Shown here one piece after another: positions 28,600 to 34,016 of a stretch of 34,027 bases of DNA; positions within the stretch are counted from its first letter, which is position 1, and every line of letters begins with the position of its first letter. The notes under the pieces were generated by a model. It was not told the origin of the DNA. It searched no databases and was given only the letters and a program-made list of their open reading frames with translations. Both the position numbers and the translations under genes were made by a program. Source of the DNA: Bacteroidota bacterium (GTDB lineage: Bacteria; Bacteroidota; Ignavibacteria; UBA10030; UBA8401). The DNA lies in the NCBI GenBank assembly GCA_021796215.1, contig JAJYOK010000028.1, positions 1 through 34,027 of the forward strand, given 5' to 3'.

Positions 28600-29619
28600 T
28601 TATTTCAAAAGTGCAATAGCGCGTTCTAATTGTAAGTCGTGTCCATTCTTCAAATCTTCAGCGGACTGCATTACCACGATATCCGGCGGAACACCGTTCC
28701 ATTCGATGGGTTGATTATCGTAACGACGAAAATCAGCATTCGAGATTCGTATTTGCCTCCCACTTGGCAGTGAATAAATTCCTTGATTGCCACCTCCACC
28801 ACCTGTTGTATCACCTACAAGGGTTACATTGGGAAGTTGTGACATCATGGTAGCAAATAATTCAGTCGCGCTAAAGCTGACGCCGTTAATCAGTACCACG
28901 ACCGGTTTAGTATATTGATATGGGCCTCTGGGCTGAACTAAAAAATTCGGGAGTGGTTTGCCTTTGTAATATTCTAAAGGAAATGTAAGAGACGCTGATA
29001 AAAACCTGCTAACGACATAATTTACTGGATCACCATGACCGCCGCTGTTTTGACGCACATCAATGATAAGTCCCTTTGCACCAGCGACATAATCCAATAT
29101 TTTGTCGAAGTCAAAGACCCAATCACCTGTTGCAAAAGCCGAGATGCGAACATAGCCTATGTTCTCTGGTAGAATTTCATAATCCATGTTCCCGTCACCG
29201 GCAAGCTTTAGCTCCTTAGTAAAATATTTTCGAACAACATGAGGATCGAAGGCGGAAACATCTCGCTTCAACCTTGGCGGCAGATATATCGTAACAGCAT
29301 ATCCGCCTTTTGTTATTATTTCTAAATGGCCATCCTTCAATTCAGTGAACATCTTAAAAAGAACATTGAACATCTCATCACCATTTGCTTTTTCAGCAAG
29401 ATGCCCGTAAACAGAATGAATGCTGTCCCAGTTGATATGTTTGAACTGAAAAAATGGATACACGGAGTTCGCAATGTCCCAAGCTTGTTCAAAGTCCGCA
29501 ACATTAATATTGTTCGATTCACCATCTAAATAATTTTGGTCAGATGGTGCCACGATGAGATCTCTGCATCCAACAAAGAATATCAAAAGTGAAGTACCTG
29601 CGAGTGCCGCGCGGCGCAA
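28600..29619 (-). CDS. S41 family peptidase, predicted lipoprotein
   Basis: 339 residues when started at TTG 29619, which gives a short lipoprotein signal (RRAALAGTSLLIFFVGC, lipid Cys at 18) with GAGG 11 nt before. An ATG at 29643 is the alternative. The S41 (C-terminal processing/tricorn core) domain shows ELKDGHLEI, GYVRISAF, GLIIDVRQNSGGHGD and the nucleophile region VLINGVSFSATELFATM, then GDTTGGGGG. There is no PDZ domain. It should be anchored in the envelope. It follows the barrel gene and lies between the kor beta and gamma genes, an odd place for it. The stretch is AT-richer than korB. Confidence 0.85.
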   Translation of the reverse strand: MRRAALAGTSLLIFFVGCRDLIVAPSDQNYLDGESNNINVADFEQAWDIANSVYPFFQFKHINWDSIHSVYGHLAEKANGDEMFNVLFKMFTELKDGHLEIITKGGYAVTIYLPPRLKRDVSAFDPHVVRKYFTKELKLAGDGNMDYEILPENIGYVRISAFATGDWVFDFDKILDYVAGAKGLIIDVRQNSGGHGDPVNYVVSRFLSASLTFPLEYYKGKPLPNFLVQPRGPYQYTKPVVVLINGVSFSATELFATMMSQLPNVTLVGDTTGGGGGNQGIYSLPSGRQIRISNADFRRYDNQPIEWNGVPPDIVVMQSAEDLKNGHDLQLERAIALLK

Positions 29620-29632
29620 TATTTTCACTTCC

Positions 29633-30433
29633 TCAAAGATCATAAGCGGCTGATAGTATAAAATTATCATTTCCTGAGATGAAGAAATCCCATGCACTGA
29701 TTCGTGTCAGCTCAAAACGATAATCGGCAGCTATTAATACTGACTGATACAATTTATAGTCGCATCCTATTTCTCCGCTGGCATCGAAGCCGGCGAACAC
29801 TGTCAATAATTTAAATGGGGACTCGGTTTTTTCTCCCTCTTCTGCTGCTACAACACTTGGCGTTCTTCCTCCCAATGAAAGCAAACTGGTCTGTGCCTTG
29901 GCATGTAACTGAAGGCTTTCATTCAGCGAACACAATGCTTCTAACTTAACCCCGCCTGAAAACAACAGAGCGAAAGAATAAGCATTGGCAATAGACTCGC
30001 CGCCATTAGCAATGTTTTCACTGCGAAAGTGGAAAAATAATTCAGATGTTGGGCCGAAAAGCACATCAACGTCTTTCGATAAAACATTCGTTTTGCCGAT
30101 GGGATACATAAACGCAACACCGAGCCTGAGCTGCGTTATTTCTGTAGATATATTGTGGTTCCTGAGTGCGGCTGTATATTCATATTCCAGCCACAAGCGA
30201 TGACCATACGTTTCATTTTGCCGCGACCAGCTTGCAGCAAAATATGAGACCTCACCGGAATATACTTCAGAAGAAATATATTCATCTTTGAGTGATAGGA
30301 ATCCGACGCCGCCGTGAATTGCAAGCCCGTCGCCAAATGAGTATGCAATGCTCGTCGAGTCTTGAGCCAGTGCTCGTGTATTCACCATCGTTAGCAGGAT
30401 CGTCATGAAGACGTTATAAATGTTCCTTCTCAT
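29633..30433 (-). CDS. Predicted outer membrane beta-barrel protein of unknown function
   Basis: 266 residues from ATG 30433, which overlaps the korB stop (TAATG) and has AAAGG upstream. It then starts with a signal peptide (MRRNIYNVFMTILLTM...ALAQ). The mature part consists of alternating polar/hydrophobic strands with many aromatic residues (for example HRLWLEYEYTAALRN, LRLGVAFMYPIG) and ends with a strand FILSAAYDL, as expected for a barrel. No family is recognized. It is probably made together with the S41 lipoprotein that follows 13 nt on. Its location just after korB suggests insertion into that operon. Confidence 0.72.
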   Translation of the reverse strand: MRRNIYNVFMTILLTMVNTRALAQDSTSIAYSFGDGLAIHGGVGFLSLKDEYISSEVYSGEVSYFAASWSRQNETYGHRLWLEYEYTAALRNHNISTEITQLRLGVAFMYPIGKTNVLSKDVDVLFGPTSELFFHFRSENIANGGESIANAYSFALLFSGGVKLEALCSLNESLQLHAKAQTSLLSLGGRTPSVVAAEEGEKTESPFKLLTVFAGFDASGEIGCDYKLYQSVLIAADYRFELTRISAWDFFISGNDNFILSAAYDL

Positions 30434-31200
30434 TATTCCTTTGGAACTTTCAAATCGCCGAGCGGATAATTCGGGAACATATTTTTTTCCATCCAGTCGT
30501 TCGCTTCGAGCGGCGTCAACTTCCAGCCGGACGGACAATTGGAAACGATCTCGATAAACGATGTTCCTTTTTTTCTTTTTTGATATTCAAATCCAAGCTG
30601 CATCGCTTTTTTCGTCTTCCGCACCGCGGCAGCGGTGTGCACTGCTTGCCGCGTCACATAATACGCGCCGGGAAGATGCGCTACAAGATCAGTGATCTTC
30701 AGCGGGTAACCCATTTGCGACGCTTCACGTCCGAACGGAGTGGTGGACGTGACTTGACCGATAATTGTTGTCGGCGCCATTTGCCCGCCGGTCATTCCGT
30801 AGATGCCGTTGTTGATGAAGACGATGAGAATATTTTCTCCGCGGTTGATCGCGTGAATTGTTTCGCCGGTGCCGATCGCCGCAAGGTCGCCGTCGCCTTG
30901 ATACGAAAAAACAAATTTCTCGGGAAGCACACGCCTGATGCCGGTGGCAACGGCGCATGCGCGTCCGTGTGCAGCTTCCTGCATATCAATGTTCATGTAA
31001 TTGTAGGCGAAGACAGAACATCCGACCGGCGCAACGCCGATCACTTGTTCCTGAATTCCCATTTCCTGCACCACTTCCATCAGCAGCCAGTGTGCAACAC
31101 CATGTCCGCATCCCGGACAATAATGCATCGGCGTGTCGGTCAGCGTAGCAGGCTTTTGATAGACAAGCTCCATTCCGTCTATTGCTGAAACTGTACTCAT
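30433..31200 (-). CDS. korB: 2-oxoacid:ferredoxin oxidoreductase, beta subunit
   Basis: 255 residues. The thiamine diphosphate-binding subunit: CPGCGH (28-33), QGDGDLAAIGTGE (101-113) and INNGIYGMTGGQ (129-140), the TPP/Mg signature. It catalyses CoA-dependent oxidative decarboxylation of a 2-oxoacid with ferredoxin as acceptor, or the reverse carboxylation in the reductive TCA cycle. AAGGAG lies 5 nt before the ATG, and a hairpin lies only 13 nt upstream of the start. The alpha subunit gene that normally precedes beta is missing in the window; a small ORF and lipoprotein gene are found there instead. Confidence 0.95.
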   Translation of the reverse strand: MSTVSAIDGMELVYQKPATLTDTPMHYCPGCGHGVAHWLLMEVVQEMGIQEQVIGVAPVGCSVFAYNYMNIDMQEAAHGRACAVATGIRRVLPEKFVFSYQGDGDLAAIGTGETIHAINRGENILIVFINNGIYGMTGGQMAPTTIIGQVTSTTPFGREASQMGYPLKITDLVAHLPGAYYVTRQAVHTAAAVRKTKKAMQLGFEYQKRKKGTSFIEIVSNCPSGWKLTPLEANDWMEKNMFPNYPLGDLKVPKE

Positions 31201-31213
31201 TGCTTCTCCTTGT

Positions 31214-31250
31214 AAAAGGTGAGCATCACCCTGAAAGCGATGCTCACCTT
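31214..31250 (-). terminator. Perfect 12-bp hairpin with T run just upstream of korB
   Basis: AAGGTGAGCATC (31216-31227), 11-nt loop, GATGCTCACCTT (31239-31250). On the minus strand it ends in TTTT. It would terminate transcripts of the 54-codon ORF at 31266-31430, yet it lies 13 nt before the korB start, so it may act as an attenuator of korB. Confidence 0.72.
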
Positions 31251-31265
31251 ATTATTTATGGGTCC

Positions 31266-31430
31266 TTACTTCGTTAACGTCATTTTCTTGATCTGATTTA
31301 CATCGGGGGCACGAAGATGGTAAAAATAAACTCCACTTGAAAGATTCTGTGCATTGAATTGCACCGAGTGCAGTCCAGTTTCAAGAATGAGAAGAAGTAC
31401 CATCGCTGTTACCCTGAATATTTTCTTCAT
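31266..31430 (-). CDS. 54-residue ORF: signal peptide fused directly to a T9SS C-terminal sorting domain
   Basis: Starts MKKIFRVTAMVLLLIL, a signal peptide, and continues at once with TGLHSVQFNAQNLSSGVYFY and then HL...KKMTLTK, the typical end of Por secretion system (type IX) sorting domains. No cargo domain lies between. It has GGAG 6 nt before the ATG, its own -10/-35 (31476-31504) and a hairpin after its stop. The simplest reading is a deletion that removed the passenger of a secreted protein; a functional short peptide or leader ORF for korB is the alternative. The sorting-domain match is clear by eye. Confidence 0.75.
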   Translation of the reverse strand: MKKIFRVTAMVLLLILETGLHSVQFNAQNLSSGVYFYHLRAPDVNQIKKMTLTK

Positions 31431-31475
31431 AAAGGACTCCATTCATTTTCATTGATGGATTAATCGCGTTCTGTG

Positions 31476-31504
31476 ATTATATTCCATGTGTCGGAAAATA
31501 AGAA
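31476..31504 (-). promoter_or_regulatory. Promoter for the 54-residue ORF (and perhaps korB)
   Basis: Minus strand: TTCTTA (31504-31499), 17 nt, TATAAT (31481-31476). The -10 box is perfect, the -35 weak. The start codon is about 40 nt beyond the expected transcript start. Confidence 0.55.
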
Positions 31505-31506
31505 CC

Positions 31507-31531
31507 GCCCCACTCTGATTTTATTCGGGGC
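31507..31531. terminator. Possible weak terminator after the PD40 lipoprotein gene
   Basis: GCCCC, 15-nt AT-rich loop, GGGGC. On the minus strand it is followed by a T-rich stretch (GTTCTTATTTT). It overlaps the edge of the next promoter. The rest of 31532-31695 shows nothing I can name. Confidence 0.35.
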
Positions 31532-31695
31532 AGTGACGGCCTAACAAGCTATGCTTTATTTGCTTTTTCACTGGATAACAATAGGTACACATCGCTGTTC
31601 AGGTTTCTATAAAGAATCTTGCTCGGTATCGCTCCCTTTAACCTCCTTTCTTTTAGCACAGACAAAAATATTTCAAGCTTACTTCAGTTGTATCC

Positions 31696-32757
31696 TTATT
31701 GCGGATTCCAAGAAGGACCGTGCGCTTCATCATCAAGCTTCCAAACAATTGCGTTTGTTACATCTATTAAAAATAAAGGCGTTGAAAACGAAACCCACTG
31801 ACCGCTATGATAAATTTCTTCTGAAAAAGCGATATACTTACTATCGGGTGAGAATTCCATTGGTACTGAACTGAAATGAATTGGCGGAGAACTGAAAAGA
31901 ATTCGTATGAGTCTTTTCTTCACCCCGCTTTGAAGAACAGAGAGATATTCGTCATTGGCACCCAGCTCGTTAAAAACAATCATTGAATAATCTTTTGAAA
32001 ATCGCTGACCCGCTAGCTGGTATCCTGTATCTGCAATAATCACTATGCTTGTCTGTTTAGTTTCAGCATTAATTGTTACTATTGCGCTTGAAGAGTTTGC
32101 AACAGTATTTGTATTTACCAGTAATTCTCGTGTAAACGGATTAAAATCTCTTATCGTAATGAACTGCTCTGACCCAGGGGGTGGCAATGTAAGAACTAAT
32201 CCATTCGTTGTGTTATCAATATTAGTTTTAAATACGTTTGTGCCATTGAAGTACAAGAAATTGTAACTATCTTCGTAAAAATAGATGGTTGCTCTAAAAT
32301 CAAGGATTTTCTTTCTTTGACTTCCATCTGGATTAATGAGGTAAGTTGCACCTGAGTCATAAACATCATAAGAACTTTGAGCAAAGTAGCATATTTTACC
32401 ATCAGGAGTCCATTGCGGAGTCAGTCCTGTGTTCACTGAATCATTGGTTAACATCGTATTGGTTGTTGTTTTTGTATCGTAAACGACTATTTCGACAACA
32501 CTGGAAGGGAGACGACGTGAATAGACGATGTATCTTCCATCGGGCGACCATTGCGGATATTCATCGTCTCCATGATAGTTTGAAATGTTCTGCGGGTCAG
32601 TACCTGAAATATTATTTGTGAAGATTTCCCACTGCCCGTTGTATGATTTCTCGTAGCATATGCTATAATCACCTGACGGAACTGGATTTACACTGCCATC
32701 TTTGCAACCTACAAGCAGCATAGTTCCCACCACTAACAGATAAAAAATTTCCCTCAA
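31696..32757 (-). CDS. PD40 (TolB-like beta-propeller) lipoprotein
   Basis: 353 residues from TTG 32757, chosen because AAGGAG lies 9 nt before it and the protein then starts with a short lipoprotein signal (REIFYLLVVGTMLLVGC, lipid Cys at 18). A GTG at 32790 overlapping the radical SAM stop is the alternative. The body is a propeller with WD40-like PD40 repeats: YPQWSPDGRYIVYS, TPQWTPDGKICYF, FSPDSKYIAFSE, ending PSWNPQ. Such domains bind proteins or peptides in the periplasm. Function is unknown. The region is clearly AT-rich (22 of 60 G+C in 32041-32100), unlike korB. Confidence 0.82.
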   Translation of the reverse strand: MREIFYLLVVGTMLLVGCKDGSVNPVPSGDYSICYEKSYNGQWEIFTNNISGTDPQNISNYHGDDEYPQWSPDGRYIVYSRRLPSSVVEIVVYDTKTTTNTMLTNDSVNTGLTPQWTPDGKICYFAQSSYDVYDSGATYLINPDGSQRKKILDFRATIYFYEDSYNFLYFNGTNVFKTNIDNTTNGLVLTLPPPGSEQFITIRDFNPFTRELLVNTNTVANSSSAIVTINAETKQTSIVIIADTGYQLAGQRFSKDYSMIVFNELGANDEYLSVLQSGVKKRLIRILFSSPPIHFSSVPMEFSPDSKYIAFSEEIYHSGQWVSFSTPLFLIDVTNAIVWKLDDEAHGPSWNPQ

Positions 32758-32786
32758 ATCTTTCAGCTCCTTTGAAATAAAAGTTC

Positions 32787-34016
32787 TCACTTTTCCCCTA
32801 TCTTTTTATATCCGCTCTTCGGCACGGTGCGCGTGAAGCAGCCGAAGTGTTTCGGTTCTTCGAGACGGCACGACCAGACAAGCTGTCCGTCGAGGACGGT
32901 GATGTCGGGACAGCCGTCGCACATATTTTGTCCGCCGTCTTCCATCACGTCAATCGGTTGAATGATCATGATAGATTGAAAATAAACGCGGTCAAAAATT
33001 TTGAGCGGATTCTTCAACACGTATCGCGCATATTTCCCGAACGCTTTTCTTGCTCCTTTATCCAATATGGCGCCTGCCATAAGCCCGGACCGTGCCGACT
33101 TGAGCACCGACGGACTTTCGTATGCAAGATATTTTCCGTGCATGAAATGATGGAACGTCTGCACAAATTCGATAAACTTGCTTCCCATATAACCGAAAAT
33201 TTTTCCCTTCGAACCGGCGCGCGTGGAAAGAAGCCACTTGAATGAATCTGGTTTCTCCGTGCCGTTCAGGTAGCCGCACGGAGAGAATTCGGGAAAACGT
33301 TTTCTGATTTCCTGCACCACATCTGTGGAGAGAATGTCAATCTTGCGCTGCTCCACGCTCGAATACACAAGCTGGTTCATATCAATTTTCGTTCCGCCCG
33401 CGTACCAGTCCATCGGGATTTGCGGAACCGCCTGGCGAAATGCGATGAAGACCATAACATGAACAATGTCGATGTGTTGTGCCGCCCACGCCGCCATTTC
33501 CGGAACATACTGCATCGTATCTTCATACACTGTCGAATTGAAAGAGCATGAAATGCCGCCTTCTTCCGCGAGCATTTCTGCATAACGAAGGCGCAAGTCG
33601 TTCAGCTCAATTTCATTTTTGTTTTTCCAGCCGGGCCGGTTCTGTTTGCTATCAATGTGAAACGTGAATCCGTACACGCCGGCATTCTTCAGCTCGTGCA
33701 ACAGTTCTCTTGTAAGCGACAGTCCGTTCGTGTTGATGATCGGTTTTATTTTTCGGGCGGCAATGTCTCTCACGATCTCCACAATCTGCGGATGCATGAG
33801 CGGATCGCCGCCGGCAATTGAAATTCCATCCGCATTTCTGAGTCTGACGAACGTGTCTATTTCATTCCGCACAACATCGAGAGGCTTGTGGGACTCAGTG
33901 AGATTTTCCCGGTAGCAGCCGTCGCACGAAAGATTGCATTGCGATGTCGGCTCAAGCCACGATATTGCATTGTCGGGTAAATTCCAAGGAAGACGATATA
34001 ACTCTCTGTGATTCAC
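32787..34016 (-). CDS. Radical SAM enzyme of unknown substrate
   Basis: 409 residues from GTG 34016; the frame stays open to the window edge, so the true start might lie outside. The radical SAM cluster motif is C27-x3-C31-x2-C34 (CNLSCDGCY), followed by GISIAGGDPLMHPQIVEI (the GGDP SAM-binding element) and IINTNG. A C-terminal region has further cysteines (MCDGCPD near 366 and WSCRLEEPKHFGC), which could hold an auxiliary cluster or bind substrate. The class is sure; the reaction is not. The end is 30 nt from the TTG start of the PD40 lipoprotein, so both may be one unit. Confidence 0.88.
   Translation of the reverse strand: MNHRELYRLPWNLPDNAISWLEPTSQCNLSCDGCYRENLTESHKPLDVVRNEIDTFVRLRNADGISIAGGDPLMHPQIVEIVRDIAARKIKPIINTNGLSLTRELLHELKNAGVYGFTFHIDSKQNRPGWKNKNEIELNDLRLRYAEMLAEEGGISCSFNSTVYEDTMQYVPEMAAWAAQHIDIVHVMVFIAFRQAVPQIPMDWYAGGTKIDMNQLVYSSVEQRKIDILSTDVVQEIRKRFPEFSPCGYLNGTEKPDSFKWLLSTRAGSKGKIFGYMGSKFIEFVQTFHHFMHGKYLAYESPSVLKSARSGLMAGAILDKGARKAFGKYARYVLKNPLKIFDRVYFQSIMIIQPIDVMEDGGQNMCDGCPDITVLDGQLVWSCRLEEPKHFGCFTRTVPKSGYKKIGEK

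Follow-up and report, generated by a model that had tools for sequence, protein, structure and literature searches.

We analysed a stretch of 34,027 nucleotides from a draft Bacteroidota genome (the window), towards the end of which a mini-ORF and a lipoprotein gene lie side by side on the minus strand (Table 1). A preliminary description had presented the ORF as a signal peptide joined directly to a type IX (T9SS) sorting domain. The 54-codon ORF is real: its reading frame is intact and cleanly kept, it begins at the ATG at 31430, which has a GGAG site, and its product ends in KKMTLTK. A frame of 58 aa from an ATG at 31442 encloses it, the latter ATG falling inside the ribosome-site-bearing sequence. 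Of the signal peptide, the n- and h-regions are present, but the usual cleavage region seems to be missing; by inspection of the residues we see neither an A-X-A-like site nor another convincing cleavage site.

Table 1. Features of the mini-ORF region (positions in the window)
Feature	Position	Strand	Remarks
Segment absent from both same-genus sisters	31201..32790		GC about 38%, below flanks
Terminator-like hairpin, strong, then TTTT	31216..31250	minus	past the mini-ORF stop codon
Mini-ORF, 54 aa + stop	31266..31430	minus	signal-peptide n/h-region fused to C-terminal half of T9SS sorting domain
GGAG ribosome-binding site	31437..31440	minus	context TGGAG(T/G)CCTTTATGAA common to mini-ORF and G155 protease gene start
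TATAAT-like -10 element	31476..31481	minus	aligned place: TATAAT in G310, TATAGC in G155
Shared intergenic segment	31495..31603	minus	common to G155, G310 and G332; hairpin and terminator-like hairpin with T-run
PD40/TolB-like beta-propeller lipoprotein gene	31696..32790	minus	lipobox LVGC; probable partner of the lost protease in an ancestral module

The PD40 gene and the mini-ORF form the content of an extra segment of ~1.6 kb between a radical SAM gene (32787-34016) and a TPP-enzyme gene (30433-31200), the latter encoding the beta-subunit of a 2-oxoacid:ferredoxin oxidoreductase. In both sister genomes (G001 and G002) the radical SAM gene directly precedes the TPP-enzyme gene, with about 160 bp or less between the two and neither the PD40 gene nor the mini-ORF in this place. 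DNA similarity to the sisters ends near 32804 and returns near 31187, the flanks being collinear with both genomes on both sides, and the GC content is about 0.35-0.42 in the insert versus roughly 0.45-0.55 in the flanking genes. The full-length version of the mini-ORF that the preliminary description had proposed to seek in sister genomes was not there: the corresponding locus was found, but the whole segment is missing from both.

The PD40 gene and its papain-like neighbours

PD40 orthologues are patchily distributed, occurring in 11 of 391 genomes of the class: no clear orthologue was found in the family, strong ones are present in 10 other class genomes, and the best (54% identity) belongs to G155, in whose own family no other close relative was found. 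At six of the nine sites with readable flanks, a long secreted Peptidase_C1 (papain-like) protein adjoins PD40, encoded downstream of it in five genomes (G155, G310, G243, G332 and G325) and upstream of it in G340. The three sites without such a neighbour are G298:C8, G389 and G391; two further ones (G298:C38 and G279), which stop at contig ends, lie outside the nine. The PD40-adjacent C1 proteins show relatedness among themselves, several carry right-handed beta-helix or TPR segments, and wherever the end is readable (G155, G310, G325 and G340, but not G243 and G332, where it is not reached) they are about 830-940 aa long and bear a T9SS tail. A search for a homologue of this protease in the window's genome (G000) found none. 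Since the lipoprotein gene is found beside the papain-like protein repeatedly, in different families of the class (L088, L089, L090, L091, L094 and L095), it suggests that the two form a functional pair. In G155 the protease frame is broken by a single in-frame stop codon (L088, 12765-12767), and this copy may be a pseudogene or contain a sequencing error.

Upstream of the mini-ORF, the DNA can be aligned with that preceding the G155 protease gene at a score of 39.5 (maximum 24.5 in shuffles and 25 in 500 real slices), and the alignment ends in the common start context TGGAG(T/G)CCTTTATGAA; similarity to G310 and G332 is weaker. The distance from the PD40 stop codon is likewise comparable, with 265 nt to the mini-ORF vs about 273 nt to the protease gene of G155. 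The mini-ORF has the position beside PD40 and the homologous upstream region expected of a C1-protease gene remnant and shares the start context of G155, but it differs from the PD40-linked proteases in size, the locus holding 54 codons and no protease where the relatives encode those much longer proteins.

The expression signals reported earlier as an intact promoter, GGAG site and terminator hold up only to some extent. The TATAAT, the GGAG and the hairpin are present, but the -35 region is poor (TTCTTA, 3/6), and in a promoter/terminator scan of the region such sites were no commoner than in shuffles; this general scan listed neither the TATAAT nor the hairpin downstream of the ORF. The hairpin itself is very stable (-24.7 kcal/mol, z -5.6), none of 200 shuffles being equally so.

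The sorting-domain half

The tail of the mini-ORF had been called a typical type IX sorting domain, and its similarity to such domains (CTDs) is real, but it comprises the C-terminal half only. Against the profiles it matched positions 38-69 of 72 in TIGR04183 (17.6 bits) and 41-73 of 75 in PF18962 (Por_Secre_tail; 18.1 bits), so that the proposed profile check recovered this half at scores below both curated cut-offs (23 and 27 bits, respectively). CTD ends of the same genus match the tail at E ~1e-8 to 2.5e-10, with up to 63% identity over 38 residues. SSGVYFYHL in the motif D region and KKMTLTK in the motif E region, including the conserved lysine, align with the paralogues, whereas profile match and alignment agree that the N-terminal half, with YPNPFNP and the early strands, is missing. 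Compared with a T9SS type A sorting domain, the mini-ORF therefore has the regions of motifs D and E but not the YPNPFNP half, and it has no passenger. The CTD fold is a seven-stranded beta-sandwich; an AlphaFold2 model of the 54 aa, of low confidence (pLDDT 69.7, pTM 0.44), has three strands in the CTD part.

The window's genome possesses T9SS machinery (SprA, 1099.5 bits; PorU, 1004 bits) and ~100 CTD matches above cut-off; among these, a single open frame is shorter than the mini-ORF (43 aa, C11), and it is truncated by the start of its contig. No other short T9SS-tail frame in G000, G001 or G002 joins a signal peptide directly to half a CTD: L051, L052 and L053 are cut by contig starts, L045 is frame-shifted from an upstream gene, and the remaining ones have either retained a larger part of the CTD or a disrupted appearance.

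Origin of the mini-ORF

The mini-ORF is very probably the scar of an in-frame internal deletion in the gene of a large secreted papain-like (C1) T9SS protease, i.e., an ordinary gene remnant rather than a purpose-built mini-protein. Of the two origins considered in the preliminary description, an internal deletion within a secreted protein thereby gains support, as both the gene neighbourhood and the DNA upstream correspond to a module that in other families contains a long papain-like T9SS protein at this place. The reading is based on what was observed, namely the extra segment relative to the sisters, the module in relatives, the upstream homology, the halved domain and the absence of the protease from the genome. 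An ancestor would have gained a two-gene module of PD40 lipoprotein and large secreted C1 protease with a T9SS tail, inserted between the radical SAM gene and the beta-subunit gene; presumably this was a gain in the lineage of the window, not a loss in both sisters. A deletion of probably about 2.4-2.7 kb (~2.5 kb), a size estimated from the lengths of the relatives, would then have hit the protease gene in frame, beginning within the hydrophobic core of the signal peptide (roughly after codon 16-17) and extending midway into the sorting domain, and would have left the upstream region, the start codon, the n/h-region of the signal peptide, the last ~37 CTD residues and the stop codon. The breakpoints cannot be proven, because an undeleted allele was found neither in the species nor in the genus, both sisters being without the whole segment. 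The product of the mini-ORF, if made, is probably functionless.

A variant of the scar, compatible with this explanation, is that a more extensive deletion, or a recombination, fused the start of the protease gene with the CTD end of some other T9SS-substrate gene, which we consider unlikely, though not markedly so. The tail may indeed derive from another gene, since the CTD half that was kept resembles CTDs of its own family (24 of 37 residues identical to those of G002 and G003) more than it does the CTDs of the C1-protease homologues (15-17 of 37). CTDs vary widely, however, and may adapt to the host machinery, and the CTDs of two species were incompatible in one test (PMC11285876), which we count against a chimera; moreover, one gene is enough for the layout observed. 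A search by DNA for a source paralogue, covering the window's own genome and 40 relatives, gave only the locus itself in the former and short matches elsewhere, and the signal-peptide residues alone are too few for their origin to be assigned. An origin of the CTD half from another gene would leave the verdict of a deletion scar unchanged. That two distant loci were joined in assembly, a worry raised in the preliminary description, might be thought of in a draft genome of 44 contigs with about 100 similar CTDs, but the collinear flanks make such a join unlikely and the junction DNA has no second match in the genome, so that we hold an artefact to be highly improbable. A chance ORF with a spurious T9SS-like end, to which the sub-cut-off profile scores could point, is refuted by the matches to CTD ends of the genus and by upstream DNA homologous to that of a T9SS gene, and its probability is negligible.

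The other origin suggested earlier, a functional mini-protein that could occupy the secretion machine, found no support. The last 22 residues of one CTD (HBP35) can direct export in Porphyromonas gingivalis (PMC3120885; PMC10202324), and as the mini-ORF retains motifs D and E, which suffice there, an export-competent peptide is conceivable; its D/E region is equivalent to the minimal HBP35 CTD, but the HBP35 constructs, which were tested, combined a complete signal peptide with GFP as cargo (PMC3120885), whereas the mini-ORF is natural, cargo-less and known from sequence alone. A functional cargo-less export-signal peptide that would engage the T9SS, e.g., as a decoy or regulator, might also be favoured by the remaining Shine-Dalgarno site, -10-like element and terminator-like hairpin and by SprA and PorU in the genome. 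However, if the upstream DNA came from the protease gene, the ribosome-binding site, the -10-like element and the upstream hairpins are inherited and provide no evidence of function. Furthermore, among 98 genomes of the order the whole 58-aa frame has no orthologue, matching CTD ends only (a search of the contigs with this frame gave 12 matches, all to the CTD part or nearly so and mostly in long proteins), the three genomes of the genus showed no comparable mini-ORF that is intact, half of the CTD and a good cleavage site are lacking, and in RgpB the integrity of the CTD fold is important (A719R, PMC11285876). Such a peptide would thus be very improbable, and so would the specific case of a natural cargo-less export signal, in which a stub still expressed after the loss of the protease would engage the translocon through its D/E motifs as a decoy or regulator; nothing in the present analysis supports it. 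If the stub were shown to be made, it would serve as a naturally occurring test case for the minimal T9SS signal.

As a deletion scar, the mini-ORF illustrates that a mini-gene may look clean, complete with start signals and a terminator, and yet be such a remnant, and that the lost gene can be identified by comparing its neighbouring gene across families, a comparison that also brought out the recurring pair of PD40 lipoprotein and papain-like T9SS protease.

Intergenic segments and insertions at the locus

The shared intergenic segment also lies between the PD40 and protease genes of loci L088 (minus strand), L089 (plus) and L091 (minus), i.e., across families, with a mean column identity of about 70% over the four sequences. 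A GC-rich hairpin comes first in it, followed by the terminator-like hairpin with its T-run; in the first hairpin, four of the 12 pairs have both partners changed in one or another sequence, and pairing is lost at some positions. An Rfam search of the upstream region and of this segment gave no match, and the segment may represent the PD40 terminator or an undescribed leader RNA.

In the radical SAM-TPP intergenic regions of the sisters (L010, 1225-1394; L011, 1117-1218), small inverted repeats differ between the two genomes. The beta-subunit gene is preceded by the radical SAM gene in this genus and by the alpha subunit in several relatives from other genera (e.g., L012, L013 and L021). A second segment (28600-30432), with an S41 peptidase gene and an unassigned ORF, interrupts the ferredoxin-oxidoreductase genes in the window as it does in G001, but G002 has no such interruption; the cluster seems prone to insertions.
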